Positions 3,740-54,590 of a stretch of 64,000 bases of DNA are shown here, piece after piece. A program made the position numbers and the translations under genes. The notes beneath the pieces are model-generated. The model searched no databases, was not told the DNA's origin, and saw only the letters and a list, made by a program, of their open reading frames with translations. The stretch lies in contig NZ_JAMXHT010000001.1 in assembly GCF_023955655.1 (NCBI RefSeq), forward strand, positions 124,001 to 188,000. The letters are read 5' to 3'. Position 1 is the stretch's first letter; every line of letters starts with the position of its first letter. Source of the DNA: Ralstonia soli (GTDB taxonomy: Bacteria; Pseudomonadota; Gammaproteobacteria; Burkholderiales; Burkholderiaceae).

Positions 3740-4092
3740 GGCTGATTCCCTTGATTGATGGAGAAAGTTGACTCGCTCTATCGGTGGTCGATCGAGCTTC
3801 TGTCCGGTCAGCGAATTGCATTCACTGTCGCGGAGCACGCAGGCTTTACGAACAAGCAGGACGTGACGAGAGCTTCGCGTGAGTGGATGCGGCGCTGTGA
3901 GGCGCACCAAACCAATTGACGACGCCCGCGCGCACGAAAGCTCTCGCTGCGCCTCTATGCTGTCTGACTTCAATGTACCAATTGGACGGAAATTTGTCCA
4001 GCGAGTATATTATAGTACTGATGGGTCTGTGGCCGGAGCTGAGATTCTCGTCACATAGAGCTGATCAATTAAACTGATGAATAGGATAGGAC
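3740..4092. other. Intergenic region upstream of lyase gene
   Basis: Apart from the promoter and operator at 3982-4030, I see no gene here. Positions 3740-3973 are only an open extension of the RidA frame. The region separates divergent RidA and lyase genes. Confidence 0.5.
3982..4030 (+). promoter_or_regulatory. Promoter with ACTGA-N4-TCTGT operator
   Basis: A -35-like TTGGAC (3982-3987) and a -10 TATATT (4006-4011) are 18 bp apart. A near-palindrome ACTGATGGGTCTGT (4017-4030) sits where transcription would start. The operator matches ACTGA-N4-TCAGT at 9 of 10 positions. A second small inverted repeat TGGAC-N8-GTCCA overlaps the -35. The downstream gene starts 63 bp further on. Confidence 0.6.
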
Positions 4093-4908
4093 ATGACAAA
4101 TGGCGCCAAACTAGCGTGGGAAACGTCGATCAGCGACGTCGAACAATCGAGTGTTTTTATTCGTGGGTATGACCTGGGAGAGTTGATCGGTCAACTTTCT
4201 TTCGCATCCGCTTCCTATTTGCTGATTCGAGGGCGGTTGCCAACGCCCGGCGAGTCCAAGATGATGGAGGCGGTCCTTTGTTCTGTTCTGGACTTTTCGT
4301 TGAAGAAGCCTGGTACCGTGGCGGCGCGCTATTGTGTTTCTGGCAATCCGTCGATGGTGGCTGGTTTGGCCACGGCAGTGCTATCTGCTGGCGAATATAC
4401 GCTTGCCCCTGACAGCGGCGGTGAGTTCATCCTGTCAAGCTTCGCTGCATACAAAAAGCAAGCTGAATCAATGACTCACGCGGCTGATGCTTTCGTGGCG
4501 GAACTCCGGGAGAAGGGGCAGAGAGTGCCCGGCTTTGGACATCCGAATTTCCGTTACACAGATCCCCGTGCCCAGAAGCTGAAAGCAATCGCGCAGCAGA
4601 ATGGAGTCTGGGGGGAGATGTGCGACTGGTATGAGGCCATTCATGCGTCCTTTATCAAGCAAGCGAACAAACCCGATCTCGTCATCAACGAAGTAGGGAT
4701 GCTTGCAGCAATTCTGGCGCAGATGCAGTTCACGCCCGCGGAGATGACTGGGCTAGCGCTCGTTTCGACGATGCCCGGGCTTATTGCGCACATCTCTGAG
4801 GAGCTCCGAGGGAAGATTCGCATTCGCGGCGTCGCAGATGCGGACGCGTCATACTCGCGCGAACGCAAGAACCTGAAAGAGGATCTGGACGTTGCGGGTT
4901 GGGGCTGA
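4093..4908 (+). CDS. Short citrate synthase / citryl-CoA lyase family protein
   Basis: 271 residues, well short of ordinary citrate synthase (about 370-430), matching the compact citryl-CoA-lyase-like branch of the family. The signature GFGHPNFRYTDPRAQKL (near residues 150-167) is the citrate synthase active-site segment with its catalytic His. A second conserved helix contains PDLVINEVGMLAA. Family members condense or cleave 3-hydroxy-3-carboxyl acyl-CoA compounds such as citryl- or citramalyl-CoA. Given the CoA-linked catabolic surroundings I infer a cleavage role, releasing acetyl- or propionyl-CoA, but direction and substrate are not proven. It stands alone behind its own operator-bearing promoter. 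Confidence 0.8.
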   Translation: MTNGAKLAWETSISDVEQSSVFIRGYDLGELIGQLSFASASYLLIRGRLPTPGESKMMEAVLCSVLDFSLKKPGTVAARYCVSGNPSMVAGLATAVLSAGEYTLAPDSGGEFILSSFAAYKKQAESMTHAADAFVAELREKGQRVPGFGHPNFRYTDPRAQKLKAIAQQNGVWGEMCDWYEAIHASFIKQANKPDLVINEVGMLAAILAQMQFTPAEMTGLALVSTMPGLIAHISEELRGKIRIRGVADADASYSRERKNLKEDLDVAGWG

Positions 4909-5178
4909 TTTCCATTTCATCGTACAGGCCCGCATCCTCAAGCGAGGGTTCGGGCCAGGGCAGCACCGCGACGCGAAGCAGCTCTAATCCACAACATCCC
5001 GCAAGGTTTGCACGCTTTTAGCTTAGCCAAACGATGAGTGGCAAATTTCACGACTGGGCTTTAGGGCGGCAGGATAAGCGCCCATGAACTCTTGGTTCAT
5101 GCATCTGCTTAGGGGCGAACCTTAATGCTCCGGGAGCGCTGCCATCTTCTAGCGCGCTCTCGGGGCATATCGTTAAGG

Positions 5179-6849
5179 TCACATATTGGGGTAGTTTGGC
5201 CCGCCTCCCCCTTCAGGAGTGACCCAAACGATGTTTTGTGTCGGATCTTTGATATCGCAGGTTTTGCAGTGCAAGCAATTCTGCGCGTTGATAACAAGCC
5301 GATCACTCCCGTCATCGTTTCTCGCGAATTCGTAGACGCCAGCAGGACAGTAGCGGCTCTCGGGACCTGCGTACGTTCTCAAGTTTACGTCTACTGGCAC
5401 CCCTGAGTCGCTCAGTGTTAGATGTGCCGGCTGGTTTTCCTCATGGTTCGTATTTGAAATAAAAACTGATGATAGCCGGTCGAATGTTAGCTTGCCATCA
5501 GGCTTTGGATAGTTGATTGGCTCACTCTGGGCGGCTGGTTTCAGCATCTCGTGATCCCAGTGTTTGTGGTGGAGCGTCCACGGTACGTTGCCGCCGAACA
5601 GTTTCTGCTCAATGCCTACCATCAGCGTGCCAAGGTATAGACCTTTGCTCATCCATTGCTTGAAGTTGCGCGCCTTGTACAGTTCGGTATGCAACCACGA
5701 AGCCTTGAACGATGCTGGGTAGGCGGTCAGCACGTCATTTTGGCGGCCGGCTTGCACTGCGTCGAATGCGGCGTCCGCTGCTAGCATGCCGGTCTTGATG
5801 GCAGCGTGTGTACCCTTGATGCGTGAGGCGTTCAGAAAGCCTGCATCGTCTCCTACCAACGCACCCCCCGGGAATGCGAGCTTAGGCAGTGAGAGTAGAC
5901 CACCTGCAGTAATTGCCCGCGCACCGTACGACAAGCGCTTGCCGCCCTCGAAGAACGTGCGGATCGCCGGGTGCGTCTTGTAGCGCTGAAACTCCTCGAA
6001 CGGTGACAAATACGGGTTCGAGTATCCGAGGCCAACGACAAACCCTACCATCACCTGGTTGTTGTCAATGTGGTAGAGGAACGAGCCGCCGTAGGTCTGT
6101 GTATCGAGCGGCCAGCCTGCGGTGTGGATTACGAGCCCGGACTTGTGTTTCGCCGGATCGATTTCCCACAGTTCCTTAATACCAATGCCGTATACCTGCG
6201 GATCCGACGATTCGCGCAACTTGAACTTGTCCTGCAGATGTCGGCCAAGATGGCCACGCGCGCCTTCGCAGAACAGCGTGTATTTTGCGTGCAACTCCAT
6301 TCCGAGTTGGAAGTTTTCTGTCGGCTTGCCGTCCTTGCCAATCCCCATATTGCCGGTGGCGACACCCTTCACCGAGCCATCGTCGTTATACAGCACTTCG
6401 GCTGCCGGAAAGCCTGGGAAAATCTCCACGCCAAGCGCTTCCGCCTGCTCACCCAACCAGCGCGTGAGATTCGCGAGGCTGATGACGTAGTTGCCGTGGT
6501 TCTTGAAGTTGTCTGGCAGTGCCCAGTTCGGTACGGCCCTCGCGTTGTCTTCTGACAAGAATAGGAAGCGATCTTCAGTAACTTCGACGTTAATCGGCGC
6601 CCCTTTTTCCTTCCAGTCGGGTATTAGTTCGGCGAGCCCACGAGGGTCCATCACCGCGCCTGACAGGATATGAGCACCGACTTCAGAGCCCTTCTCGAGA
6701 ACGCAAACGCTGACTTCGGAGTTCAACGATGCGGCACGTTGCTTGAGACGGATCGCCGCTGACAATCCGGCTGGACCACCACCGACGACTACAACGTCAT
6801 ACTCCATTGACTCTCTTACTTGAGTCTGGAAGCCGGTCTCAACTGCCAT
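5179..6849 (-). CDS. etfQO: Electron transfer flavoprotein-ubiquinone oxidoreductase
   Basis: 556 residues, the full length of ETF-QO, the inner-membrane-associated enzyme that passes electrons from reduced ETF to ubiquinone. The FAD dinucleotide fold VVVGGGPAGLSAAIRL is near residue 20, a GG-type ubiquinone domain lies in the middle (GGLLSLPKLAFPGGALVGDD), and a C-terminal [4Fe-4S] ferredoxin domain has Cys ligands in YCPAG, NCLHCKTCDIKDP. Start ATG 6849. It is the last gene of the minus-strand order etfB-etfA-etfQO, 92 bp after etfA. It gives every ETF-linked dehydrogenase in the region an exit to the respiratory chain. Confidence 0.96.
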   Translation of the reverse strand: MAVETGFQTQVRESMEYDVVVVGGGPAGLSAAIRLKQRAASLNSEVSVCVLEKGSEVGAHILSGAVMDPRGLAELIPDWKEKGAPINVEVTEDRFLFLSEDNARAVPNWALPDNFKNHGNYVISLANLTRWLGEQAEALGVEIFPGFPAAEVLYNDDGSVKGVATGNMGIGKDGKPTENFQLGMELHAKYTLFCEGARGHLGRHLQDKFKLRESSDPQVYGIGIKELWEIDPAKHKSGLVIHTAGWPLDTQTYGGSFLYHIDNNQVMVGFVVGLGYSNPYLSPFEEFQRYKTHPAIRTFFEGGKRLSYGARAITAGGLLSLPKLAFPGGALVGDDAGFLNASRIKGTHAAIKTGMLAADAAFDAVQAGRQNDVLTAYPASFKASWLHTELYKARNFKQWMSKGLYLGTLMVGIEQKLFGGNVPWTLHHKHWDHEMLKPAAQSEPINYPKPDGKLTFDRLSSVFISNTNHEENQPAHLTLSDSGVPVDVNLRTYAGPESRYCPAGVYEFARNDDGSDRLVINAQNCLHCKTCDIKDPTQNIVWVTPEGGGGPNYPNM

Positions 6850-6941
6850 AAATATACAACTCCGTCCGTGAATAAGATTTGTGAGGCGGCATTAAGATTG
6901 CACGCTGTAGCTAAATGCGCTTTTGATTTAAGGCGCTAAGC

Positions 6942-7877
6942 TTAATGCAGTGCCTTAACAAGTTCTGGTACAACCTCGAATAGGTCGCCCACGAGACCGT
7001 AGTCCGCCACACTAAAAATGGGTGCGTCAGCGTCTTTATTGATCGCTACGATGACGTGGGAGTCTTTCATGCCGGCGAGATGTTGAATCGCGCCCGAGAT
7101 GCCAATTGCGATGTAGAGGCGAGGCGCGACAATCTTTCCTGTCTGCCCAACCTGATAGATATTCGAGGCATAGCCGGCGTCGACCGCTGCTCGCGATGCA
7201 CCGACCGCTGCATTCAATGCATCGGCGAGAGGCGCAAGTACCGACTCGAAGTTCTCTTTGCTTCCGAGCCCGCGCCCACCTGCCACAATTACGTTAGCAG
7301 TCGTGAGCTCCGGGCGCTCGAGCTTGGCGGTCTCACGGGAGAGGAAGTGAGTAAGCTCCGAGGCGGGTGCCGCAGCAATTGTATCGAGAGCGGCGTTTCC
7401 ACCTTCCCTCGCTGCGGCATCGAAAGCGGTGGAGCGAACTGTGATGACTTTGATCGGGTCGAACGATTGGACAGTTGCGATAGCGTTGCCAGCATAGATC
7501 GGGCGCTGGAACGTATCCGCAGAATCGACGGCGATGATATCGCTGATTTGGGCGACGTCGAGCTTTGCTGCGATACGAGGCAAAGCATTTTTGCCATACG
7601 CCGTCGCAGGTGCAAGTACGTGGGTATAGCGGTCTGCGACGCCGAGTACGGTCAACTCAATATTTTCGGCTACGCCGTCCGCCAATTGTGGCGCGTCTGC
7701 TAGCAGAACCTTTGCTACGCCCGGGATCTTTACAGCGGCACTAGCCACTGACTGCGCATTGTGGCCAGCCACCAGAATGTGTACATCGCCACCGATTTTC
7801 TGCGCGGCGGTTAAGGTGTTAAATGTGGCCGGATTCAGCGTCGTGTTGTTGTGTTCAGCAATAACAAGAATCGTCAT
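6942..7877 (-). CDS. etfA: Electron transfer flavoprotein alpha subunit
   Basis: 311 residues. The C-terminal FAD-binding region carries the family signature: SRAAVDAGYASNIYQVGQTG, then IAIGISGAIQHLAGM and VAINKDADAPIF. The N-terminal domain packs against EtfB. It begins 21 bp after the etfB stop, so it is translated from the same message. Electrons from acyl-CoA or amine dehydrogenases enter FAD here and leave through ETF-QO. Confidence 0.96.
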   Translation of the reverse strand: MTILVIAEHNNTTLNPATFNTLTAAQKIGGDVHILVAGHNAQSVASAAVKIPGVAKVLLADAPQLADGVAENIELTVLGVADRYTHVLAPATAYGKNALPRIAAKLDVAQISDIIAVDSADTFQRPIYAGNAIATVQSFDPIKVITVRSTAFDAAAREGGNAALDTIAAAPASELTHFLSRETAKLERPELTTANVIVAGGRGLGSKENFESVLAPLADALNAAVGASRAAVDAGYASNIYQVGQTGKIVAPRLYIAIGISGAIQHLAGMKDSHVIVAINKDADAPIFSVADYGLVGDLFEVVPELVKALH

Positions 7878-7898
7878 TTCATCAGTCTCCGCAATTTC

Positions 7899-8648
7899 TC
7901 AAAGGACTTTGACTTCAGTCTTGAGTTTTGTCACGAGCGTTGCGACGTCGGACACTTTCTCCCCTGCCGAACGTTTCGGCGGCTCATTCACCTTGAGCGT
8001 CTTGAGGCGAGGCTTGACATCAACGTGCAATTCATCAGGTGTCGTAACTGCCAGTGGCTTTTTCTTCGCCTTCATGATGTTTGGCAGCGTAACGTAGCGA
8101 GGCTCGTTCAAGCGCAGGTCGGTCGTCACGAGCGCGGGGAGCGTCAACGCCAATGTTTCTGCGCCTCCATCGACTTCGCGTGAGACGGTCACTTTGCGAC
8201 CCTCGACAACCACTCTTGATGCAAAGGTCGCCTGTGGCATGCCAGCGAGAGCTGCAAGCATTTGGCCCGTCTGATTCGAGTCATCGTCGATGGCTTGCTT
8301 GCCGACAATGACGAGGTCTGGCTCCTCTTCTTGAACCAGTGCATGTAGAAGTTTCGCGACGGCCAGCGGTTGCAGTTCGTGTTGCGTTTCCACGAGGATG
8401 GCGCGGTCGGCGCCCATGGCGAGTGCGGTACGTAGCGTCTCCTGGCATTGGGAGACACCGCAGGACACGACAAGAACCTCGCCTGCCGATCCGGCTTCCT
8501 TCAAGCGCACCGCCTCCTCAACGGCGATCTCGTCAAAAGGATTCATAGACATCTTTACCGCTGCAATGTCCACGCCTGTGTTGTCTGACTTGACGCGAAC
8601 TGCGACGTTGTAGTCGACAACTCGTTTTACTGCTACCAGAACCTTCAT
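7899..8648 (-). CDS. etfB: Electron transfer flavoprotein beta subunit
   Basis: 249 residues from the ATG at 8648 ([19 protein letters not shown]), the normal EtfB length. The start is chosen because a strong GGAGGTCAGG Shine-Dalgarno precedes it directly and homology begins here; the frame is open up to 9257 but that extension is not protein-like. EtfB signatures include [17 protein letters not shown] and the AMP-binding [20 protein letters not shown]. It is the first gene of the etfB-etfA-etfQO operon, with an operator-bearing promoter 210 bp upstream. Confidence 0.96.
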
Positions 8649-8857
8649 CCTGACCTCCGATCCATCGATGATTGGGTGACCCGATGTCCACGTTTTGCTA
8701 TCAGCGGTGGGCGTTCGCTCGTCTGTGAACCAGCCGGTCGGGCCGCTCTTCACCTGTACGCCGACCAACCTTGGGTTGCTCGAAGTCCTCCGAAGCCCGC
8801 GCGCCACGTTGATGTTGGGTCCGTTGACTGCGCCAGAAAAACTGCTGATAATAAAAA

Positions 8858-8898
8858 ACTGACCACCTAGTATATATCGTGAAATTTGTGGCATGCAA
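8858..8898 (-). promoter_or_regulatory. Promoter of etfB operon with palindromic operator
   Basis: Reading the minus strand: -35 TTGCAT (8898-8893), 16-bp spacer, -10 TATATA (8876-8871), then the palindrome ACTAGGTGGTCAGT (8871-8858), which on the plus strand is ACTGACCACCTAGT. It matches ACTGA-N4-TCAGT at 8 of 10 positions and has the same -10/operator geometry as the sites at 4017 and 21628. The etfB start is 210 bp downstream. Confidence 0.6.
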
Positions 8899-9000: not shown

Positions 9001-9039
9001 TTGACTTTGAGGCCAGTTGGTGCATACTGACCGGAGGGT
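9001..9039 (+). promoter_or_regulatory. Promoter of second ETF operon with operator half-palindrome
   Basis: -35 TTGACT (9001-9006), 16-bp spacer, -10 CATACT (9023-9028), overlapped by ACTGACCGGAGGGT (9026-9039). The left arm and spacer are perfect, the right arm is weak (7 of 10 arm positions overall). The downstream gene starts at 9225. The site lies 155 bp from the etfB-operon operator, so the divergent ETF operons may share a regulator. Confidence 0.5.
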
Positions 9040-9224
9040 CGAATTATTCTGCCTGGCGGTCGTAATTTTGTGCGCGTGACTCTTTCGCGGGGAAGGCGTG
9101 CGCGAAACATCGCACGGGCGACCGGGAAGGCAAGGGCAAACCCTAGCGTGTCGGAATGAAGTCGTGGCGTGGGGCGGCGGGTCGATGGCAGCGTGACGGG
9201 CGATCTATTCGGATGGAGAGATAA

Positions 9225-10016
9225 ATGCATATCGTAGTAACACTGAAGCAGGTCCACGACCCCAATACTCCAGCGGAGCGTTTGGTACTCGGCGTGGATG
9301 GTAAGTCGCTGACGGGTCCCGCTGGCATGAGTGATGTGGCGAACGGGTATGACGTCAACGCCGTTGAAGAGGCACTCAAGGTACGAGAGGCGGTCGGTGG
9401 ATCGGTTACCGTTTTGGGCGTCGGAGGCGAGACGCTAAAGGGACATCTTCGCCGTGCGATCGCGATGGGTGCCGACAAGGCGATTCACGTAGAAGGGACT
9501 GGCGGTATCGACTCGGACCCGACTCAGGTTGCCGCGCTTCTAGCCGCAGCTATTCGAACTCTGCAGCCGGTGGACCTCGTGCTTTGTGGGCGGCAATCAT
9601 CTGATACAGATAATGGGCAGGTCTTGTTCCGCCTCGCTGAGCAACTTGGGTTTAGCGCGTTGTCGCCTATCAAGCAGATGCTTGAAGTTACGGCGGCTTC
9701 AGTTTGTGTCGAGCGGCTGACTGATGACGGTATTCAGCGAGTTCGATCGGCCTTGCCTGTCTTGCTGGGTATTTCGAATGAAGCGAATAAGCCTCGCTCG
9801 CCCTCGCTCAAGGGGGTCATGAGTTCCAAAAAGGCTGAGATTCCAACGCTTACGCAGGCAGATCTCGGTGTTGAGTTGCCAGCGCCGAGTATGGCCCTTC
9901 GGCGAATCTATTTTCCGGAGGTTGGCGTCGGACGCGCTGAGATTGTTTCGGCTGTGGATGGGGCGGCATCTGGTCGGGCCCTTGCCGACCGGTTGCACGA
10001 GGAAGGAGTGATCTGA
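9225..10016 (+). CDS. Second ETF beta subunit (EtfB/FixA-like)
   Basis: 263 residues with the EtfB fold: [18 protein letters not shown] at the N-terminus, [16 protein letters not shown], the [11 protein letters not shown] segment, and the AMP-site motif [13 protein letters not shown]. It is clearly divergent from the general EtfB at 7899. Its stop overlaps the next start (TGATG), indicating translational coupling to the alpha-like subunit. The pair heads a four-gene operon with two FAD oxidoreductases, so it is probably a dedicated electron carrier for them, not a spare general ETF. Confidence 0.92.
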
Positions 10017-10999
10017 TGGCTGGCGTTCTGTTTTTTGGTTGCACTGCGAATGGCGCATTGCTCCCAGGCACACAAGAGGTCGCGGCGGCAGCGCTGCAAC
10101 TCGCGCAGACTTTGGGCACATCGGTGGCAGCCGCTATTCTCGGCAGCGACATCGAGAAAGCTGCATCTACGTTGGGCGAGATGGCTGGGACAGACGTCTA
10201 CTATGTGGATGACGTGCGACTCAAACCATATCTTGGCGACGCGTACATCGCTTCGGCACAGTCCATCATTGACGCAGCTTCGCCAGACTTTATCCTTTTC
10301 CAGCAGACCTCTGAAACCAACGAGTGGGTGCCGCGGCTAGCGGCGCGTTTGGACGCAGCACTGGTCACTTCGTGTAACAGTATTGTCGTCGGTGATGGCG
10401 GACCCATAGCGACGAAGCCGGTGAGCGGCGGAGCTGCAAATGCCGAGTATGTTTTTAACCGGCCGTTGCGCATGGCCATCCTCGCACCGGGTAGCTATGA
10501 GCCGTGCGAGCAGCAGGGCGGGGCGGGCACCCTTCATAGAATCGCCGCACCGGAAATCAATACTCGTGTCGAGGTATTGGAGGAGATTCCCGATCCGGTT
10601 GGTGCCGGTCCGCAGTTGAAGACTGCACGGGTTGTCGTGTCGGGTGGGCTCGGTATCGGCAGCAAGGAGAATTGGAAGCTGATCGATGACGCAGCGGCCG
10701 CGTTGGGTGCCGGGGTTGGCGGCAGCCGAGCCGTGGTGGAACTCGGCTGGATCCCACCTTCGAAGCAAGTTGGATTTAGCGGTGTAAAGATTCGGCCGGA
10801 AGTCTACTTCGCTGTTGGAATTTCGGGCGCGGTGCACCATCTCGCGGGCATCTCAGGCGCCAAAACTGTGGTCGCAATCAACAATGATCCAGAGGCGAAC
10901 ATCTACCGAGTAGCGCGGTTTGGTGTCGTCGGTGATGTGAAGGATGTTCTCCCCGCGTTTGTGGAGCGGGTGAAGGAACTGCGCTCCCAAAATGTTTAA
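10016..10999 (+). CDS. Second ETF alpha subunit (EtfA/FixB-like)
   Basis: 327 residues. The FAD-binding C-terminus reads GGSRAVVELGWIPPSKQVGF, then FAVGISGAVHHLAGISGAK and VAINNDPEANIYRVARFG, the EtfA pattern, but the QVGQTG loop of general EtfA is QVGFSG here. It overlaps the beta subunit by 1 nt and is followed after 2 nt by the FAD/[2Fe-2S] gene, so the operon is tight. Expected to bind FAD and exchange electrons between its partner dehydrogenase and ETF-QO. Confidence 0.92.
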   Translation: MAGVLFFGCTANGALLPGTQEVAAAALQLAQTLGTSVAAAILGSDIEKAASTLGEMAGTDVYYVDDVRLKPYLGDAYIASAQSIIDAASPDFILFQQTSETNEWVPRLAARLDAALVTSCNSIVVGDGGPIATKPVSGGAANAEYVFNRPLRMAILAPGSYEPCEQQGGAGTLHRIAAPEINTRVEVLEEIPDPVGAGPQLKTARVVVSGGLGIGSKENWKLIDDAAAALGAGVGGSRAVVELGWIPPSKQVGFSGVKIRPEVYFAVGISGAVHHLAGISGAKTVVAINNDPEANIYRVARFGVVGDVKDVLPAFVERVKELRSQNV

Positions 11000-11001
11000 G
11001 T

Positions 11002-12519
11002 GTGGCCATGGAAACGACATCTAAGCACGTGATTGTGGTGGGTGGGGGTGCTGCGGGTTGTGCTGCTGCTTTGGAAGCCGCCAGCGCCGGATTGCAGGTT
11101 ACCCTGATCGACGAACATCCCCAGGAAGTATCGGCCATGAGTCTTGACGCGCCGTACTTCTACGGTGCTCGACTCCCGTCGGTCCTGTCGGATCAGGGTC
11201 TTGTCGCAGAGCGGGTACTGGGTTCCAATGAGCCGCTAATGGAGTGCCTCGAGGCAGGTGTCGACATCGTCACCGGCACTGCCGTATGGGGTAGTTTCCG
11301 TCCTAGCAAAAACAATACGTATCAGAAAGGCAACCAGATCGGGCTTGCCGACGCTGAGCGCAGCTGGCTGCTTGACTACGACTACTTGGTTATCGCCCCT
11401 GGCTCGCGCGATCTTGTCTTGTCGTTTCCAGGTTGGAATCTGCCAGGCGTTCTGGGCGCCAATGGTGCGAGCGCCTTGCTTTCGCGCTATGAGGCACTTG
11501 GGGGCGGAAAGGTCGTAATCCTCGGTAGCGGTAACTTGGCCTTGCGAACGGCCCAGTTGGCGCTCTCAAAAGGCGTCTCTGTCGCCGCTATCGTTGAAGT
11601 TATGCCGGCGATACAGGGCGACGAACGGTTGGCCGAGGAACTCAAGAAAGCAGGCGTCGCTTTTTATCTTTCAACGGCTGTCCGTCGAGCTATCGGTGAA
11701 ACTGAGGTTAAAGGAATCGAACTCGTTGGCCTGGACGACTCGAGTCAACCGATCGACGGAAGCATCATTGATATCCCATGCGACACTATTTGCATGGCGT
11801 TCGCTGCGCTGCCGAACATTGAGTTTGCGTCAATCACCGGCTGCAAAACCGAGTTCAATCGCGCGCTTGGCGGTTGGGTGCCCGTTGTAAGCGCCAACAT
11901 GCAAACGAGTCTTCCGAACGTGTTCGTCGTGGGCGATGGGGCTGGATTGACGGAGAGTATGTTGCTCGATCCCGCCGACGCAGAAGCGCAGGGTCGCCGA
12001 GCTGCACAATACATCGCGGCGAGCGCCGGTGGCGATGGGGCTTTGCCGGTCGATGCAGAGCCACGGATCACGTCCTTCAGTGTGGCGGCTAACTATCCGC
12101 CAACCGAATGGCTAGAAGCATTTGTGCGTGTGCAAGGTTTAGACGTTACCGTGTGCCAGTGCGAAGAGGTCTCTCGTCGGGAATTGCTCGATGTCAGCCC
12201 CCCGGGCTACCTGAAGGCAGAAAACCGGATCCCATGTGGCGGTCTTGCGGGACTCTCTGACGTTGGGAAGTCGAGTCAAGACCTTGTGAAACGACTAACT
12301 CGAGTCGGGATGGGCCACTGCCAGGGCAAGCGTTGTCGCGATCAGTCGTCCATGCTGCTGGCGAAGGCAGCAGGCAAGGCTTTGGAAGATATCACTCCCG
12401 GATCCTATCGCTGCCCGGTGCGCCCCATCCCTCTGCAAGTCATTGCGGACTACAACGAGAGTGAAGAGATGCGCGCCGGCTGGTTGTACTGGCCTGCTCC
12501 GCCAATCGACCACGAATGA
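11002..12519 (+). CDS. FAD/NAD(P)-binding oxidoreductase with BFD-like [2Fe-2S] domain
   Basis: About 505 residues from GTG 11002, or 503 from ATG 11008. The N-terminal FAD fold is VIVVGGGAAGCAAALEAASA; a second Rossmann motif VVILGSGNLALRTAQLALS lies near residue 175; a later FVVGDGAGLTESMLLDP is the typical flavin-site segment. The C-terminal part has the paired cysteines CQCEEVSRREL and GHCQGKRCRDQ of a bacterioferritin-associated-ferredoxin-like [2Fe-2S] domain. This layout is that of the A subunit of opine or heterotetrameric sarcosine-type oxidases. It is inserted between an ETF pair and a DAO-family subunit, which suggests the four proteins act as one amine- or amino-acid-oxidising unit. 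Substrate unknown. Confidence 0.88.
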   Translation: MAMETTSKHVIVVGGGAAGCAAALEAASAGLQVTLIDEHPQEVSAMSLDAPYFYGARLPSVLSDQGLVAERVLGSNEPLMECLEAGVDIVTGTAVWGSFRPSKNNTYQKGNQIGLADAERSWLLDYDYLVIAPGSRDLVLSFPGWNLPGVLGANGASALLSRYEALGGGKVVILGSGNLALRTAQLALSKGVSVAAIVEVMPAIQGDERLAEELKKAGVAFYLSTAVRRAIGETEVKGIELVGLDDSSQPIDGSIIDIPCDTICMAFAALPNIEFASITGCKTEFNRALGGWVPVVSANMQTSLPNVFVVGDGAGLTESMLLDPADAEAQGRRAAQYIAASAGGDGALPVDAEPRITSFSVAANYPPTEWLEAFVRVQGLDVTVCQCEEVSRRELLDVSPPGYLKAENRIPCGGLAGLSDVGKSSQDLVKRLTRVGMGHCQGKRCRDQSSMLLAKAAGKALEDITPGSYRCPVRPIPLQVIADYNESEEMRAGWLYWPAPPIDHE

Positions 12520-12584
12520 TGCGAACGAAGTTCAGTTGGTCGGTGTAGTAAGGGACGGTGCGAATGAATATGCAGAGGAATTTC

Positions 12585-13742
12585 ATGGAAACCGCTGACG
12601 TAGCTGTTGTGGGGGCTGGGGTTGTCGGGTTGTCGACCGCATACTGGCTCGCAAAGGCCGGGGCGAAGGTCGTTGTATTGGACAAGGGTAAGGCTGCTTG
12701 GGAAGCGTCGGGTCGGGCCAGTGGGTATTTGAGCTTGCGTGGTGAAACCCCTATAGAAGCCCGTGTTGCTGCCGAAGCGGAGCGAATCTGGAATACCTTG
12801 GACGACGAACTCGGGTACGTGACCGAGTGGTGCCCTAAAGGCCGTCTGTGGGCAGCATTCCCGTATGAATGGGAAGACATGCAGGCAACATATGCGGCGT
12901 TCTGCAAGACGGATTTCCCGTTCCGGCTGATTGATGGAAAGGAAGCGCGAGAGTTGCTTCCCTATCTGAGCGAAACGGTCGTTGGAGGTATTCATACCAC
13001 TCATGGTGGCCATGCCAACCCGCAGCGCACGGCGCAGGCGTTTGCGTGGGCGGGGCGCGATCGTGGCGTGGTGATCATGGAGAATTCCCCCGTACTATCG
13101 ATCACGACATCGGGTGGTGCAATTACGGGTCTCAAGACGCCTGGCGGTGAAATTTCCACGCCGCGTATTGTGAACTGTGCGGGTCCACAGGCTGGCATGA
13201 TTGCGGAAATGATCGGCGGTTATGTGCCGGTCGCTGCGGCTAGGCTTGAAGCAATGGTTTCTGCGCCTTTGCCACCTATGTTCACTTTTGCAATGATTGG
13301 GAACGGCGTGTCGGTACGTCAGACTCATCGTGGAAATCTCCATTTCAACGGAGGTCCACATGAATGGATCGACGTTGACTTGACGTCGGAGCCGGAGAAG
13401 CCGACTACGCCAATCATTCGCAACGCTGCTAGACGAGTGGCTGAACTGCTGCCATCAGCAGCCAATGCTCCGCTTCTGCGCTGCTGGGGTGGTGTTATTG
13501 ATCTGACGCCCGATCATTCAATTGTCCTTGACAAGGTCGACGGGCCGGAAGGCATGTTTGTGGCGCTCACATCGGGTCACGGTTTTGGTTTGTCGCCGGC
13601 AATCGGAAAGGCCATGGCTGAGCTGACGCTGACAGGGGAAAGCAGCATCCCGATCAAAGAACTGGGTCTGTCGCGATTCGCGAAGCTGCCACGAGATTGG
13701 CGCAAGCAATTCAGGTGGGACGCAGGGAACTGCAATACCTGA
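12585..13742 (+). CDS. DAO-family FAD-dependent oxidoreductase
   Basis: 385 residues from ATG 12585, which is preceded by CAGAGGAATTTC; starts at 12558 (GTG), 12564 and 12570 are also in frame. The FAD motif is VAVVGAGVVGLSTAYWLAKA, followed by SGRASGYLSLRG and, at the C-terminus, CWGGVIDLTPDHSIVLDKV and ALTSGHGFGLSPAIGKAMAE, the pattern of glycine/sarcosine/opine oxidase B subunits. These enzymes oxidise the C-N bond of secondary or primary amines to imines. It is the last gene of the ETF2 operon and is followed by a strong terminator. Confidence 0.9.
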   Translation: METADVAVVGAGVVGLSTAYWLAKAGAKVVVLDKGKAAWEASGRASGYLSLRGETPIEARVAAEAERIWNTLDDELGYVTEWCPKGRLWAAFPYEWEDMQATYAAFCKTDFPFRLIDGKEARELLPYLSETVVGGIHTTHGGHANPQRTAQAFAWAGRDRGVVIMENSPVLSITTSGGAITGLKTPGGEISTPRIVNCAGPQAGMIAEMIGGYVPVAAARLEAMVSAPLPPMFTFAMIGNGVSVRQTHRGNLHFNGGPHEWIDVDLTSEPEKPTTPIIRNAARRVAELLPSAANAPLLRCWGGVIDLTPDHSIVLDKVDGPEGMFVALTSGHGFGLSPAIGKAMAELTLTGESSIPIKELGLSRFAKLPRDWRKQFRWDAGNCNT

Positions 13743-14920: not shown

Positions 14921-14925
14921 ATGAT

Positions 14926-18390: not shown

Positions 18391-18396
18391 AATAGT

Positions 18397-18410
18397 ACTG
18401 AGTAGTCAAT
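18397..18410 (+). promoter_or_regulatory. Palindromic operator upstream of GMC oxidoreductase
   Basis: ACTGAGTAGTCAAT matches ACTGA-N4-TCAGT at 9 of 10 arm positions and lies 51 bp before the GMC start. A degenerate second copy (ACCATTGGTCTAA) follows near 18418-18431. No clear -35/-10 pair is visible. The site is also within reach of the divergent ALDH operon. Confidence 0.5.
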
Positions 18411-18460
18411 TTTACAGTACCATTGGTCTAAACAATGTCCGTGTCGTTCTTGTTACGAAT

Positions 18461-21594: not shown

Positions 21595-21641
21595 TTGACC
21601 GAAGGTACCAACAAGTATATTTTGCATACTGATTGGTCAGT
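21595..21641 (+). promoter_or_regulatory. Promoter with perfect ACTGA-N4-TCAGT operator
   Basis: -35 TTGACC (21595-21600), -10 TATATT or TATTTT (21616-21623), then the perfect palindrome ACTGATTGGTCAGT (21628-21641). This is the best copy in the window. The nitronate-monooxygenase-like gene begins 97 bp downstream. Confidence 0.7.
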
Positions 21642-37640: not shown

Positions 37641-37744
37641 GCAATACCGGCGCGAAGTTACACGGAGCCGGTATGGGGCTCAACACAAGGCACCTCGAAA
37701 CGATCATTCATTTCTTCACAACTCGCTCGACGGGAGATAGTCAG

Positions 37745-39557: not shown

Positions 39558-39783
39558 CAACGATCGTCCCTTCCGATCGGCTGCTTGCTCGGCACTGCGT
39601 CAGCAAGCGGCCCCGCCCCGCTTTCCGCCGTGGCTGAGGGTAGACTGGCTTACCCGTTCTTGGTCAATTCGAAGCTATCGGCAATCACTTCAAATGCGTC
39701 GTTATCGAGAACCGACCCATTCAGAACAACGGTGACCCAATCCTCCTTGTTCGTAAGCGTGTCCCCAGCGCCGTGTCGACGAC
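39558..39783 (-). pseudogene. Possible MmcQ/YjbR-type protein, C-terminal relic
   Basis: The minus strand ends with TNKEDWVTVVLNGSVLDNDA and FEVIADSFELTKNG then a stop at 39650. This resembles the tail of MmcQ/YjbR-like (DUF419) DNA-binding fold proteins. The reading frame beyond it enters the IS66 relic, so only the last 35-40 residues remain. Confidence 0.4.
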
Positions 39784-40515
39784 GTGAAAAGAAGTTACCA
39801 GAGTGATTTCCACCAGAAAGTAGTGGGGACCAAAGTGGCGACAGAAGCGCCGAAGAGACGTTCACGCAGAGGCATCCCGAATCACCCCATTGAGTTAGGA
39901 CGACAACTGGCGAAGCTGGCGTGCGAGCCAGGCGTATCGGTGGCGCGTCTGGCCATGGAGCACGGGTGCCCCCGAACCTGTCTTCAACTCGTGCCGAGCA
40001 CTTCGTGCTGGTGAATATGGTCCGGTCGGTTTGCTGCCTGTGACAACGGAGGCCCCGGTGCAAGAGATGCAGCAGCCGGCACCGTCACCAGCTGCCACCG
40101 GAACTCCAGCAGGCGCCACTGAGATTAGCGTGGGCAAAACCCGCGTGCGCATTGGAGGCTTACCCGACAAAGCCACGTTACTGTTGGTACTGCGCATGCT
40201 GCGCAGTACGTCGGGATCGGCGATATGATTTGCTTACCCAGTCGGACGAAGATCTGGCTGGCCGCCGGCGTGACCGACATGCGCTCGGGCTGCAGCAGTC
40301 TGGCCACCAAGGGCCGGCCTGTATTGGTGCGATCCGTTTAGTGGCCACGTGTTCGTATTGCGAGGCAAGCGCGGCGATCTGGTCAAAGTGCGTGTTGATG
40401 AGGCGGCTTGAGCGTGGCCGGTTCGTGCGGCCACGTGCCGATGGTGGCGTGGTATGCCTGAGCCTGGCTCAAGCGGCATGCAGTCGATCATCGTGTCAGA
40501 AGATCGCATGCTAAA
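39784..40515 (+). mobile_element. IS66 family element relic (tnpA and tnpB)
   Basis: TnpA is visible as HPIELGRQLAKLACEPGVSV, ARLAMEHG, then after a frameshift EISVGKTRVRIGGLPDKATL. TnpB begins at ATG 40223 with SRTKIWLAAGVTDMRSG and continues in other frames as SGHVFVLRGKRGDLVKV and LERGRFVRPRADGGVV. At least three frameshifts; tnpC is absent. Inactive. A separate tnpC tail lies at 29460. Confidence 0.8.
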
Positions 40516-40937
40516 GCAAGGCGGCCATCACGCCACGCTTACGCACGCTGAGTTACCTGACACCATTCCTAATTTGGACCGTGCGTGCTGAACGTATGCG
40601 CGCCGCGGCGTTCCCTTGCTCCTGAGGATGGCATCGAGTGATGCCGCATCCAAAGTCGCGAGCATTGTGCCCGCTTTTCCGGATCCACCTTGGTGCGAGT
40701 TGTGGTGGTGAGTCGTGATATCGCGCACCCCCATTCAGAGGCGCGCTCCAAATCAAGTAGCGTCTCGCCCCCCGACCGCGCCTCTCCTCGACATGCTGAC
40801 GTCCATCGCGGCATATCCTAGTCGCGCTTTATTTTTGACTTGATGGTCTAATTTTTTTATTGTAGAGTACATGAACACATTGGCGAGACGGCGTCTTGTG
40901 ATCTGACGCGCAAGCTGTCGCTCCTGCGGAGAACGTT
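40516..40937. other. Non-coding stretch with SDR promoter candidate
   Basis: No recognised gene. Near the right end, TTGACT (40835-40840) and TATTGT (40858-40863) are 17 bp apart and enclose a poor operator-like ACTTGATGGTCTAA (40838-40851, 5 of 10 arm positions). Confidence 0.35.
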
Positions 40938-41729
40938 ATGGTTGATCTCAACGGTCGCGTGGCAGTGGTCACGGGCGGTGAAACGGGTATTGGGCTCGCA
41001 ATCGCTCGCACCCTGGCAATGTCGGGGGCCCAGACGGTCATCGGGGGGATCATCGAAGACAAGGGCAACGAGGCTGCAGAGACAATTCGGACTGCTGGCT
41101 GTGAAGCGGTATTCGTCAAGACCGATGTCAGCATCGAAGAGCAGGTTGAGTCGCTAGTTCGTGCCGCAGTTGATCGCTATGGCAAGCTCGACATCATGGT
41201 GAACAACGCAGGCGTCTATGACGGTTTTGCGGATTGTCTCGAGACGTCGCCCGCCCTGTGGGATCGAGTTATTGAGATCAACCTCAGGGGTGTGTACTTG
41301 GGGACGCGCGCAGCGCTCAAACGAATGGTTCCGCAGCGATCGGGCCGAATTATCAACACGTCCTCGGTTGGGGGCCTTCGTGGCTCTGCAGACGGCTGCT
41401 CCTATACAGCGTCCAAGTGGGGGGTCATTGGTTTGACCAAGCAGGTTGCATGTACCCACAGCCAATATGGCATCACCGTCAATGCAATCTGCCCCGGTGT
41501 GATTCAGACGAGCCTGCGTGAAACCTCCGCGATAAATCTTGGGGACGTGGCCCCAGACATGAACCGCGGTGTAGGCGATAGCCCCGACGCGTTCAAGGTA
41601 GTTGTTCCTGCGAAACGTCGCGGTTCTCCTCAGGAGGTAGCGGAGGTTGCAGCATTTCTCGCATCCGACGCGGCGAGCTATGTCTCAGGGCAAGCGATTG
41701 CAATTGACGGCGCTTGGACTGCGTTTTGA
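40938..41729 (+). CDS. SDR family oxidoreductase (paralogue of 15682)
   Basis: 263 residues. VVTGGETGIGLAIARTLAM cofactor motif, KTDVS, VNNAGVYDGFADCLETSPAL, Ser in INTSSVGG, catalytic YTASK and C-terminal SGQAIAIDGAWTAF. First gene of a plus-strand operon that continues with a deacetylase-like hydrolase 15 bp later. The resemblance to the SDR at 15682 (TGGETGIG, FDGFA, similar ending) indicates duplication within the region. Confidence 0.94.
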   Translation: MVDLNGRVAVVTGGETGIGLAIARTLAMSGAQTVIGGIIEDKGNEAAETIRTAGCEAVFVKTDVSIEEQVESLVRAAVDRYGKLDIMVNNAGVYDGFADCLETSPALWDRVIEINLRGVYLGTRAALKRMVPQRSGRIINTSSVGGLRGSADGCSYTASKWGVIGLTKQVACTHSQYGITVNAICPGVIQTSLRETSAINLGDVAPDMNRGVGDSPDAFKVVVPAKRRGSPQEVAEVAAFLASDAASYVSGQAIAIDGAWTAF

Positions 41730-41744
41730 CAAGGTTATTGAACA

Positions 41745-42578
41745 ATGACAACTGTATGTTTGACCTTCGACTTCGACGCGCTAGCAATTTGGTTTAGCAC
41801 GTTCAAGCAGACAACTCCCACGGCACTTTCTCGGGGCGAATACGGCGTCCGCGCAGGTATTCCACGCATCTTGGCAATGCTCGCGCGTCAGGGCGTGAAA
41901 GCAACGTTTTTTACTCCTGCACATACCGCGCGCAATTTTCCAGCCTCGCTTGAAGCAATTACAAGCGCGGGGCACGAGGTGGCTGCGCATGGTCTACTCC
42001 ACGAGAGCCCGGTAGGTCTTCCGATAGAAGAGGAGCGTGATCTCTTGTTTCGCAGCCTCGACGAACTTGAGGCAGTGACGGGCAAGCGGCCCCGCGGGTA
42101 TCGTTCGCCCGCTTGGGACCTTAGCGACAACAGTATCGCGCTTCTCGAAGAGGCGGGCCTTCAGTACGACAGCAGCATGATGGCCAATGACTTTCAACCG
42201 TATTTCGCTAGGACGGGCGACAAGATGACGGACGACAAGATCACGTTCGGCGTCAACAGTTCGGTCGTCGAATTTCCGGTCGCATGGGAGCTCGATGATT
42301 ACCCTTACTTCCATTGGTCTGCGCGCCCATACAACGCGGGTTTGCGTTCGACAGAAGATGTGTTCGGTTCGTGGAAAGGGGAGTTTGACACGGCATATGC
42401 GGAAAACGGGGTTTTTACTTTGACATGTCACCCCGAAATTATTGGACGGGGTCCGAGAGTGGCCATGCTTGAGCGCTTGATAGAACAGATGCGCGCTCGG
42501 GATGGGGTAGAGTTTTTAACGATGGAAGAAGCTGCAAAGAAATTTAAGGCAGCGTTCCAATCTGAAGAAATTGGTTAA
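41745..42578 (+). CDS. Polysaccharide deacetylase family (PuuE/HP0310-type) hydrolase
   Basis: 277 residues. NodB-fold motifs: TFDFDALAIW with the catalytic/metal Asp, AGHEVAAHGLLHESP with the metal His, GYRSPAWDLSDNSIALL, and LTCHPEIIGRGPRVAMLE. No signal peptide, so it is cytosolic and is unlikely to act on the cell wall; relatives hydrolyse cyclic amides such as allantoin or N-formyl groups. It is within an operon with SDR, MaoC and acyl-CoA ligase genes, which supports a catabolic amidohydrolase role. Substrate unknown. Confidence 0.88.
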   Translation: MTTVCLTFDFDALAIWFSTFKQTTPTALSRGEYGVRAGIPRILAMLARQGVKATFFTPAHTARNFPASLEAITSAGHEVAAHGLLHESPVGLPIEEERDLLFRSLDELEAVTGKRPRGYRSPAWDLSDNSIALLEEAGLQYDSSMMANDFQPYFARTGDKMTDDKITFGVNSSVVEFPVAWELDDYPYFHWSARPYNAGLRSTEDVFGSWKGEFDTAYAENGVFTLTCHPEIIGRGPRVAMLERLIEQMRARDGVEFLTMEEAAKKFKAAFQSEEIG

Positions 42579-42604
42579 CAAAATATAAGGTTAAGGAAAT
42601 AAAT

Positions 42605-43099
42605 ATGTCGACAGTGGAAATTCAGGTCGTTGATCAGATCGGCCCCAATGCAAAGTACTACGAAGAGCTGGAAGTCGGCACGGAGTGGGTGACTCCCCGC
42701 CGTACGATCGCCGAGGCCGATATCGTGCTGTTCACCGCTGTTACCGGTGACCAAAATCCGGTCCACACGGACGAGGAGTTCGCGAAGAACAGCATCTTTG
42801 GCGCACGTCTCTTGCATGGCCCCGCTGTGTTCGCAATTGCAACCGGGCTTGAGTTTCGCCTTGGCCTCAAAGAGGGTACCGCCATTGCCTTCCTGGGCAT
42901 GACGTGGGATATGCGAGGCCCCGTGAAGGCTGGCGACACGCTGCACGTGCGTGAGCGAGTGACCTCGAAACGCGAGACGAAAAAGGCCAGCGCCGGTATC
43001 GTGTATTTCCACGTTGCGGTTGAGAATCAACGTGGAGAAGTCGTTCAAGAGGGTGAGTGGAAGGTCATGATGAAGCGCAAGCCCGGTCTCGATTCTTGA
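42605..43099 (+). CDS. MaoC-like (R)-specific enoyl-CoA hydratase family protein
   Basis: 164 residues, single hot-dog domain. The hydratase-2 motif is complete: FTAVTGDQNPVHTDEEFA with catalytic Asp and His, then LLHGPAVFAIATGL. Hydrates trans-2-enoyl-CoA to the (R)-3-hydroxy form or a related reaction. 26 bp after the deacetylase-like gene and 29 bp before the ligase. Confidence 0.93.
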   Translation: MSTVEIQVVDQIGPNAKYYEELEVGTEWVTPRRTIAEADIVLFTAVTGDQNPVHTDEEFAKNSIFGARLLHGPAVFAIATGLEFRLGLKEGTAIAFLGMTWDMRGPVKAGDTLHVRERVTSKRETKKASAGIVYFHVAVENQRGEVVQEGEWKVMMKRKPGLDS

Positions 43100-43128
43100 T
43101 AAACGACGAATTTTGTGGTGTGCAGACC

Positions 43129-44649
43129 ATGAACAACAACATGCTAACGGCGGACATCGAAGCCTACGCCCTGAACAATCGTCAGCACGTCGCTCTTCGT
43201 AGCGGCGATTCAGTATTGACGTACGGGCAGCTTTTGGAGCAGGTCGATGAGCTTGCTAACCGCCTTAAGGATATTGGGATCGGGTCTAACAGCACCGTCG
43301 CATCGCTTTGCGAGAATCGGATTGAAGTGATCCTGCTCTACTATGCAATGAGCAGGATCGGTGGGACATTTATTTCGATCAACCCGAGTTTGACGGCTCC
43401 CGAGGTTGCTTACATCCTCGATCATGCGAGCGTAACGCTCCTGTTGCACGACGAGAAGATGCGAATGGCGGCAGAGGCCGCCGCAGCACAAGTGCCTACT
43501 GTCCGCAAAGCGATTTTTGAAGACCTAGGGAGCGTAGGCGGGATAGAGAGCAGCGAGAAATCCACCGTTGCCTCTACTGAGATCTTCCAGATTGCCTACA
43601 CATCGGGTTCAACGGGGAAGCCAAAAGCTGTTGCGTTTGACCAAGTGGCGGAAGTAGCTGGAAATCAATCGCTTATCGATCTATGGGGCATGACTCCGGA
43701 CGACGTAACGGTTGTTGCGTTGCCTCTCGGGTTTCTGTACGGCCTTTCGACCGCGTCCTCTATGACGCTTCAGGCCGGAGCCGAAGTCGTGCTGATGAGG
43801 CGATTTCACCCACGAGAAGTGCTGGAAGCATTTGTAAACCACAAGGCCACCGTGTTTCATGGTGTTCCGACGATGTTCGCCATGATGCTGGAATATGTCG
43901 AGCAGAATGACATGCACATCGACTTGTCATTCATGCGCCTATTGGTGTCGGCTGGTGCTCCGTTGACACGTGAGCTTCGCGATCGCTTTGAGGTCAAGTT
44001 CAATAAGAAAATCGACGACTACTACGGGCTGACAGAAGTTCGACCCGTCTTTGGGCGGTTTGCAGATGATCCTTCGCCGGTTCCGGATGGCGCGATCGGA
44101 AAGGCCGCACCAGGGGTGATCATCAAGATCGTTGATGCCGATGGCAGCGAGGTGAAGGACGGCGAGGTGGGCGAACTGCTTGTGCGCGCGCCATCGACGA
44201 CGCTTGGCTACTACAAAAATCCGGAGCTGACGGCGGCCACGTTCGAGAGCGGCTTGATGAGAACCGGTGACCTTGGCTATCGAGATGAGAACGGCTTCTA
44301 CTATCTCACCGGCCGAATCAAAGACATCATCATTCGCGGTGGTGCAAATATCGCGCCTGCGGAAGTCGAGGAAACCATTGCGACTCATCCAGACGTCAAG
44401 TCTGTGTCGGTTATTGGCGTGCCAGACGAGAAATTCGGCCAGGTTGTTGCCGCATATGTGGTTCCTCGTGACATCCATCATATCTCGAAAGAAGGGTTGG
44501 TCGAATACTGCAAGGTGAGGCTCGCCGATTTCAAAGTTCCTAGTCAGATTTACTGGTCAGACGATTTGCCGCTGGGCGTCACTGGGAAAGTTGACAAGAA
44601 GGCGCTTCTTGCGCGCTGGACCGAAGAGCGCGCATCGACGCATGCCTAA
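43129..44649 (+). CDS. AMP-dependent acyl-CoA synthetase/ligase
   Basis: 506 residues from ATG 43129; the open frame begins at 43057 inside the MaoC gene. ANL motifs: P-loop YTSGSTGKPKAVAFD, the A5 segment YYGLTEV, A7 TGDLGYRDENGFYYLTGR, A8 KDIIIRGGANIAPAEVEE and A10 Lys in GVTGKVDKKAL. It adenylates a carboxylic acid and forms the CoA thioester, feeding the MaoC hydratase and SDR of the same operon. Substrate not predictable. Confidence 0.94.
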   Translation: MNNNMLTADIEAYALNNRQHVALRSGDSVLTYGQLLEQVDELANRLKDIGIGSNSTVASLCENRIEVILLYYAMSRIGGTFISINPSLTAPEVAYILDHASVTLLLHDEKMRMAAEAAAAQVPTVRKAIFEDLGSVGGIESSEKSTVASTEIFQIAYTSGSTGKPKAVAFDQVAEVAGNQSLIDLWGMTPDDVTVVALPLGFLYGLSTASSMTLQAGAEVVLMRRFHPREVLEAFVNHKATVFHGVPTMFAMMLEYVEQNDMHIDLSFMRLLVSAGAPLTRELRDRFEVKFNKKIDDYYGLTEVRPVFGRFADDPSPVPDGAIGKAAPGVIIKIVDADGSEVKDGEVGELLVRAPSTTLGYYKNPELTAATFESGLMRTGDLGYRDENGFYYLTGRIKDIIIRGGANIAPAEVEETIATHPDVKSVSVIGVPDEKFGQVVAAYVVPRDIHHISKEGLVEYCKVRLADFKVPSQIYWSDDLPLGVTGKVDKKALLARWTEERASTHA

Positions 44650-54115: not shown

Positions 54116-54250
54116 TCAGAATCGCCACTTCTGATTGAGCTTTCTGCGCTCAGCCCAGGTCTGATGTTTTACAACGGTGTTTGCTTCGAAGGCAGCCTCT
54201 TTTTCATCGCCGCCCATAACCTTGGCGGTGTGAATGTGCACTTCCTCAAG
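54116..54250 (-). pseudogene. Unrecognised protein tail
   Basis: The minus strand encodes SLEEVHIHTAKVMGGDEKEA and AFEANTVVKHQTWAERRKLN then QKWRF and a stop at 54116-54118. The residue mix is clearly protein-like and the upstream side is interrupted by a stop within 10 codons. I cannot assign a family; it is likely the remaining C-terminus of a lost catabolic gene. Confidence 0.35.
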
Positions 54251-54527
54251 CGAGCGACAAGCCGTTGTTGTCGTTCATGGGCGGCACTAGGGGAAACACG
54301 GGGGCGGCGCCATGCCTTGTCCAGAGCCAATCGGCGGACGTAGGACGCGTGTGGACCAAAAAAAAACTTGTGTCGAAATGTTTGTTGTCGTAGATTTTCG
54401 TAACAGAGGTATGGAACGTCGGACTGTTAAGTACGGCACATAGGTGCCCAATGCTTCATGGTGTTGTCGACAGGCCACTGCGTGGCGGTTGCAGCTAGGA
54501 TGGGCCGCTCAAAGTACAGCCAAAGCG
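54251..54527. other. Non-coding stretch upstream of envelope module
   Basis: No gene or known RNA recognised; includes an A8 run near 54358. Confidence 0.4.
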
Positions 54528-54590
54528 TTGCGCTGTTTTTTTTGGCCAATTTACATACTCACCGGTCAGTCTAAAAGCATACTGGTCAGA
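54528..54590 (+). promoter_or_regulatory. Promoter of envelope module with tandem operator
   Basis: -35-like TTGCGC (54528-54533) and -10 TACATA (54552-54557) with an 18-bp spacer. The palindrome ACTCACCGGTCAGT (54557-54570) matches ACTGA-N4-TCAGT at 9 of 10 positions, and a partial second copy ACTGGTCAGA follows at 54581-54590. DUF1329 starts at 54671. Confidence 0.6.

Follow-up and report, generated by a model that had tools for sequence, protein, structure and literature searches.

A TetR-type operator predicted to join about nine units of an apparently acquired catabolic island in Ralstonia soli

Background

This report concerns an imperfect 18-bp palindrome, ATACTGACYGGTCAGTAT, which recurs before genes in and beside a 64,000-nucleotide stretch of the Ralstonia soli genome (the window, C1:124001-188000, where C1 is contig NZ_JAMXHT010000001.1; coordinates given without a contig are window positions), and the TetR-family protein that is its probable reader. 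The gene of this protein (C1:120470-121156, equivalent to L018:16470-17156; PF00440 and PF17932) follows a thioesterase gene and is located 3.5 kb to the left of the window. Its solved relatives are 3dcf, 3vpr (second-best, E 5e-23), which we take to be PfmR of Thermus thermophilus, and KstR2 (4w97 and 4w1u, E about 9e-15), with MbdR (4uds, E 7.6e-9) further off. KstR2, a mycobacterial TetR protein that represses a catabolic regulon and is induced by a CoA ester, differs from the system described here in its operator and pathway.

MbdR of Azoarcus sp. CIB represses anaerobic 3-methylbenzoate degradation via ATACN10GTAT operators, which span the start site, the -10 or the -35 element, and is released by 3-methylbenzoyl-CoA (passages of PMC4424350). 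As far as these passages describe it, the predicted R. soli system would be alike in an ATACN10GTAT-like arrangement over promoter elements, in the control of several promoters of one catabolic cluster, in possible autoregulation and in being a CoA-ester pathway repressor (PMC4424350), and the outer arms of the MbdR operator are shared with ATACTGACYGGTCAGTAT. MbdR is, however, remote in sequence and serves a different pathway, and its inner ten bases are left unspecified in the same passages, whereas TGACYGGTCA recurs here. An assignment of the R. soli protein as MbdR orthologue was rejected, MbdR ranking 15 among the 30 solved relatives listed and the island genes being of other kinds.

For TTHB023/PfmR, passages of PMC7022988 give CTGACCGATCGGTCAG as the site selected in vitro and report two promoters with two sites each. 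The half-site CTGACC/GGTCAG is common to CTGACCGATCGGTCAG and the operator here, but the half-sites are set differently (forming a 16-mer) and the genes concerned are fatty-acid genes.

No description of the present regulon was found in the open-licence literature; a search with the operator letters gave no publication on it, judged by titles and passages, and a search for a TetR dimer of dimers together with acyl-CoA returned only work on another family. The predicted regulon is new in its details and of a known kind, in which a TetR protein represses a pathway, here probably one via CoA esters. For a TetR subfamily that has received little study, here represented by this protein and eleven relatives, it provides a precise predicted operator. 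The sites delimit the genes that would work together within the large, apparently acquired island, and this grouping is the main clue to the substrate. The regulon also hints at a way in which an island may bring along an electron-transfer branch of its own rather than tapping the general one of the host.

Operator sites in and beside the window

The palindromes are very probably operators of one TetR repressor, the product of C1:120470-121156, by which about nine units of an apparently acquired island would be switched together. The initial annotation, whose interpretation is partly supported, being mostly right but improvable, had listed seven intergenic copies of ACTGA-N4-TCAGT as promoter marks. 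In the window check all seven 14-mers were recovered with their letters, coordinates and gene gaps, each of them intergenic relative to the genes called by a home-made gene caller; the operator itself, however, is not this 14-bp palindrome but an 18-bp ATAC-N10-GTAT-like one.

On the forward strand the operators lie at 4015..4032 (14-mer at 4017), before the citryl-CoA-lyase-like gene and with a divergent RidA gene opposite; at 9024..9041 (CATACTGACCGGAGGGT), before the second etfBA/FAD oxidase operon and with a TTGACT -35 element 16 bp upstream; at 18395..18412, before the GMC oxidoreductase gene; at 21626..21643, with the perfect 14-mer, before the nitronate-monooxygenase-like gene; at 35374..35391, before the amino-acid-type ABC importer operon and with a TTGACG -35 element 17 bp upstream; and at 54555..54572, with no -35 found, before the envelope module (DUF1329, DUF1302, MMPL, YCF48-like). 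The remaining one, at 8856..8873 on the reverse strand (TATACTAGGTGGTCAGTTT in the etfB sense), precedes etfB-etfA-etfQO. Mismatches to ACTGA-N4-TCAGT number none at 21628, one each at 4017, 18397, 35376 and 54557, two at 8858 and three at 9026; for the last two, support comes from conservation or the CAT flank only. The extended sequence noted earlier as common to several copies reads CATACTGA at 9026, 21628 and 35376 and CATACTCA at 54557. At 18397 and 8858 the copies would be coding if longer GTG-start versions of the open reading frames were used, but the called starts are 18461 (GMC) and 8648 (etfB); across 248 residues of the 249-residue etfB version the etfB relative in G120, a genome of another genus, can be aligned. 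The GMC (18397) and envelope-module (54557) sites are predicted from this genome alone, since no counterpart of either gene was seen in the compared stretches. A sixth window place within one mismatch, 48542, is in a chemoreceptor gene, lacks the CAT flank and had not been listed.

Two further sites lie left of the window. C1:117596 (CATACTGACTGGTCAGT) is a perfect site about 200 bp upstream of a Fer2/FAD reductase gene, which is followed by an M24-family gene, and C1:119901 (AGTATTGACTGGTCGGT), a weaker match (16.8 bits, outside the matrix training set described below), is placed 70 bp upstream of the 4HBT thioesterase gene (L018:15987-16421), after which tetR follows. The regulon that had been drawn across the window is supported as regards the units it joins, but it would extend left of the window. 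The nine units behind the sites are the reductase, thioesterase-tetR, the citryl-CoA-lyase-like gene, etfB-etfA-etfQO, the second etfBA with two FAD enzymes, the GMC oxidoreductase, the nitronate-monooxygenase-like gene, the ABC importer and the envelope module.

Clustering in the genome

Within one mismatch of ACTGA-N4-TCAGT, the genome (G000; 5,726,971 bases) contains 50 places. Six belong to the window (0.56 expected, P = 2e-5) and ten to the 80 kb of C1:98948-178570 (0.70 expected, P = 1.7e-9); neither P value is corrected for the motif and stretch having been chosen. The ten consist of the six in the window and four to the left of it; tested against the 100-kb flank only, these four give P = 0.0075, and one of the four is intergenic. 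Intergenic positions account for 6/10 places in the cluster and 5/40 elsewhere (Fisher P = 0.004; the 40 were classed as coding or not with a codon-score rule, and a few of those classed as coding are at the very start of an open reading frame). The six intergenic places of the cluster are 64 to 198 bp upstream of a gene start, and its four coding places lack the CAT flank. By the initial annotation, sites occurring equally inside coding regions would have counted against the proposal; this describes the places outside the cluster, where 35/40 are coding and form a plain background, but not those inside, where 4/10 are.

With the CAT flank included, CATACTGAN4TCAGT within one mismatch is found at four places in 5.73 Mb, all in C1:117596-178570. 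At up to two mismatches there are 40 places versus 28 for the reversed control, and therefore only the places with zero or one mismatch are informative. When the 1024 gap-4 palindromes are ranked by intergenic window places within one mismatch, ACTGA (five) comes first. If the gap is varied from 0 to 12, up to eight are reached in the window by other 5-base palindromes, most of them GC-rich, and ACTGA is not singled out, so that the window alone is not decisive.

The same operator around TetR relatives

A scan of the genome collection for the TetR yielded 14 loci, nine of them (L065-L073, from Paraburkholderia oxyphila, Pseudomonas, Mesorhizobium and metagenome bins) at 48-73% identity and the other five at 28-35%; no site was found in these five, where only ACTGAN4TCAGT within one mismatch was scanned. 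The recognition stretch YTKSVVYYYF is identical in 11 of the 12 TetRs, with one residue changed in the twelfth. A 17-column matrix was built from eight own sites (the seven of the window and C1:117596) and applied to ten stretches, namely L065-L073 and 80 kb of G120, all chosen for a TetR relative, for which reason the presence of TetR in them is no evidence. At 16 bits or more, 13 places were found versus a mean of 0.30 in 20 shuffles (maximum 2), and at 14 bits or more 20 places versus 1.40 (maximum 5); column-permuted matrices gave a mean of 2.55 and a maximum of 8 among 60, versus 21.

Of the 20 places, 15 precede a gene aligned to the 164-kb region by at most 450 bp, in either orientation of the site; of the other five, one is inside an aligned gene (G120 27439) and four have no aligned gene near. 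Several placements coincide. The ABC importer carries a site in the window (35373) and in G120 (26147, 13.9 bits), with weak upstream sites in L072 and L073 (9.7 and 9.2 bits). Before etfB, the sites at 8855 and at G120 40601 (L081:596-620) have an identical 18-bp core and diverged flanks. The citryl-CoA-lyase-like gene is preceded by a site in the window (4014), in L067 and in L068, and by a weaker one in L066 (11.0 bits). Many genes of the same kinds surround the TetR gene of the relatives, and their sites become visible only with the CAT-flank matrix. The earlier proposals, that a single operator placed on a -10-like element links the named units and that a TetR protein is its likely reader, are supported by CATACT inside the site, by the matching promoters and by the recurrence of the operator around relatives of a TetR encoded so close to the window.

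As a further, weak check, a sequence-only model of 30 sites, run over six genomes (built partly from G000 and G120 sites, with rough E-values and the best 150 candidates per genome scored) gave seven matches here at E <=10, six in the island and one at C26:117151, and missed the window sites at 4015 and 18395. It gave six matches in G120 (five in the island), one, two and one in three genus mates and none in G020.

In this genome two places within one mismatch occur less than 700 bp from other TetR genes: C12:600707 (L027:1498), near C12:601238, and C23:295120 (L032:1501), scored as coding, near C23:295585. Relatives of the present TetR may read similar sites.

Co-occurrence of operator and TetR

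At E <= 1e-30 the TetR is present in 2 of 150 family genomes, namely this one and G120, which has two copies, and in 0 of the 13 other genus genomes of that draw. The exact word CATACTGACYNNNSRGT occurs three times in this genome and five times in G120, all inside the islands, and five times in total, one each, in the other 148 family genomes. Among 369 class-wide genomes, a single place is found in each of 31 others, and this genome, with three, is alone above one; the TetR was found at E <= 1e-55 in this genome only (at most seven candidates scored per genome). In the genomes behind L065-L073, P. oxyphila has four exact places, three of them together at C308:71998-83447, which by its coordinates appears to be on the contig of L065; of the Pseudomonas places, 3/4 in G152 and 2/2 in G153 are on one contig, and G154 and G151 have one each. 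The independent evidence is the rarity of CATACTGACYNNNSRGT elsewhere together with the matrix test.

Operator architecture and promoter overlap

The element is an 18-bp imperfect palindrome with a -10-like CATACT inside. Alignment of 32 sites in the promoter sense gives ATACTGACYGGTCAGT, in which A at position 3 and C at position 4 never vary, and symmetrisation gives ATACTGACCGGTCAGTAT. In the left arm A, T, A and C are found in 28, 30, 32 and 32 sites, in the right arm G, T, A and T in 26, 30, 5 and 21; the far end of the right arm is thus degenerate in single sites, and ATAC-N10-GTAT is complete only in the symmetrised consensus. These column counts lean towards the matrix because the sites were chosen by it: the aligned sets (32, 32, 34 and 30 sites, overlapping but differing) comprise hand-chosen matrix hits and a few weaker sites placed by position (L066 4424, L072 9652, L073 9601). 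Matrix hits left out are G120 27439 (inside a gene), 53014 and 75937, L072 3838 and 8233, C1:208471 and C1:188494, and C1:119901 is counted only in the 34-site set used for -35 elements. The sites before RidA and etfB have the mirrored form. In the 34-site set, 16 have a -35 element matching TTGACA in at least 5/6 positions, 15-19 bp before the embedded -10, versus 2% at random positions; sites without a -35 keep the palindrome.

A secondary, unproven point is a possible second, weaker operator 21 or 25 bp downstream. The mean score of the symmetrised matrix over 32 sites peaks at +21 (z 8.2 versus other offsets, 4.0 versus column permutations) and at +25 (5.3 and 2.8); self-overlapping shifts of 4 score similarly by the first measure (8.6 and 7.6; by the second 2.7 and 2.1), and at +21 only 6/32 sites exceed 4 bits. 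Between +14 and +31 of the own sites, nothing above 4 bits is found in 7/8, the eighth (envelope module) reaching 6.0 at +24.

Proposed mechanism and alternative explanations

In the proposed mechanism a TetR dimer would bind the 18-bp imperfect palindrome, the left arm of which would double as the promoter -10 (CATACT), and the bound dimer would keep RNA polymerase off about nine units, among them the thioesterase-tetR unit from which the repressor itself is made. The TetR would probably be released by a CoA thioester that the AMP-forming ligase of the island produces, and import, hydrolysis, CoA-ester breakdown and a dedicated ETF/ETF-QO branch would then be switched on together. An inducer of this kind is suggested by the solved relatives and by the ligase, MaoC hydratase, citryl-CoA-lyase-like enzyme and thioesterase of the island.

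Several observations weigh against this interpretation. As a bare pattern the 14-mer has no excess: genome-wide, three exact places face three of the reversed control and 50 within one mismatch face 43, and the window contains 175 matches with up to three mismatches versus 179.9 +/- 11.6 in shuffles, so that the loose pattern alone shows nothing. Around the 14 loci, three places within one mismatch compare with four and three for control words. Four of the ten test stretches (L065, L070, L072, L073) have no site of 14 bits, and the stretches are related by kinship, three being from Pseudomonas, and not independent. CATACTGACYNNNSRGT was written after the G000, G120 and Pseudomonas sites, so that its G000 and G120 hits are partly built in, and it occurs exactly in 5/9 genomes behind L065-L073 (G150-G154) and in none of G155-G158. 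With one mismatch allowed, its whole-genome counts do not exceed, or barely exceed, those of the reversed control in several TetR-bearing genomes (9 versus 10 in G150, 5 versus 4 in G151, 5 versus 7 in G154, 0 versus 2 in G155, 1 versus 5 in G156 and 3 versus 3 in G157). Good -35 elements accompany 31/301 of all ATACT words in these stretches, sites included, and 3/9 own sites (C1:117596, 9024, 35374), while four own sites (4017, 21628, 54557, 8858) have a -35 match of 3/6 or fewer. Lastly, the matrix hits listed for the region include none specific to SDR2 (40938) or the amidase.

Another reader of a real operator is the alternative that fares best, although it is unlikely: the palindrome would be bound by the GntR/FCD regulator (14201-14920), the LysR regulator (1214-2107) or a TetR encoded elsewhere, and the neighbouring TetR would be a passenger. 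Both named regulators are encoded in the window, and the genome has at least 31 TetR_N matches (best 150 of 169 candidates), thus at least 30 besides this one, which is the only one found in C1:38-304 kb. However, among the tblastn matches listed for the TetR-bearing stretches GntR has no hit and LysR a single one of 27% (G120), and the repeated exact operator and this TetR occur together in just 2/150 family genomes. That CATACT...GGTC is instead a conserved -35/-10 promoter shape of the island, with the palindrome as a by-product and no repressor, is improbable to a considerably higher degree. The -10-like element in the site and the TTGAC-type -35 at 16/34 sites would fit it, but the conserved right arm and centre are foreign to a -10, the form is mirrored before RidA and etfB, the palindrome is kept where the -35 is missing, and the form is rare in other genomes. 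Chance selection of a motif by eye from 64 kb, to which the want of excess over controls genome-wide, and in the window at up to three mismatches, would be congenial, can practically be dismissed, as held-out tests found further sites both beyond the window and in other genomes.

Beyond the operator of a single TetR repressor, a wider scenario is conceivable but doubtful. A mobile catabolic island would be shared by Paraburkholderia and kin, pseudomonads and alphaproteobacteria, would degrade a nitrogen-containing substrate via CoA esters under a CoA-ester-sensing TetR with paired operators (21 or 25 bp apart, two turns or slightly more, with two dimers side by side), and would have its own ETF/ETF-QO link to the respiratory chain.

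Genes of the island and the additional ETF branch

The genes behind the window sites encode the citryl-CoA-lyase-like enzyme (4093..4908, +; PF00285, and NF004869 with 348 bits at a cut-off of 212), with RidA/L-PSP-family copy 1 opposite (3335..3739, -); etfB-etfA-etfQO (5179..8648, -); the second etfB-etfA with an FAD oxidoreductase and a DAO-type oxidase (9225..13742, +); the GMC oxidoreductase (18461..20143, +); the nitronate-monooxygenase-like enzyme (21738..22850, +); the ATPase, two permeases and family-3 binding protein of the ABC importer (35531..38581, +); and the envelope module (54671..61444, +). A core pathway region at 38769..44649 (+) encodes an Asp/Glu/hydantoin-racemase-like protein, an SDR, a PuuE/polysaccharide-deacetylase-like protein, a MaoC hydratase and an AMP-forming CoA ligase; these genes possibly belong to the ABC importer unit.

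The etfBA-etfQO operon had been taken for the general one. A second ETF-QO is encoded at C26:16391-18040, with 69% identity to that of the window; 14 of 15 other genomes of the genus have one hit each, 68-70% identical to the window copy, whereas the island ETF-QO of G120 is 85% identical to it. For this reason the window operon looks like a dedicated extra copy.

Transposase genes at 2550-3233 and C1:122055-122618 fit acquisition of the island, as does the lack of this TetR in 13 genus mates. A second tetR gene is a broken remnant (28662..28976, -), matching residues 123-227 at 63% with no DNA-binding part in the match; it is near RidA copy 2 (27032-27436, +), as if a piece of a sister cluster had been left behind, and may be compared with the two TetR genes of G120.

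As to the substrate, PDB and NCBIfam searches gave family names only and the open-licence literature no pathway fitting this gene combination. The PuuE-like enzyme of the polysaccharide-deacetylase family (41745-42578) is encoded near a hydantoin/allantoin-racemase-like enzyme and an amidase, which hints at a pathway whose entry step hydrolyses a cyclic amide, imide or ureide.

Two site-like sequences were observed apart from these units. At C1:208471 (L020:471, -), about 30 kb past the last window site, CGTACTCATTGGTCTGT scores 18.9 bits with no clear gene behind it. The third perfect palindrome of the genome, TATTACTGACCGGTCAGTTA at C26:117152 (L021:7152-7165), is 20 bp before an efflux-pump-like operon with membrane-fusion and RND genes, an assignment made from the translation alone; the model gives a match of similar score in three genus mates, perhaps at the same site, and the palindrome is probably the operator of another regulator.

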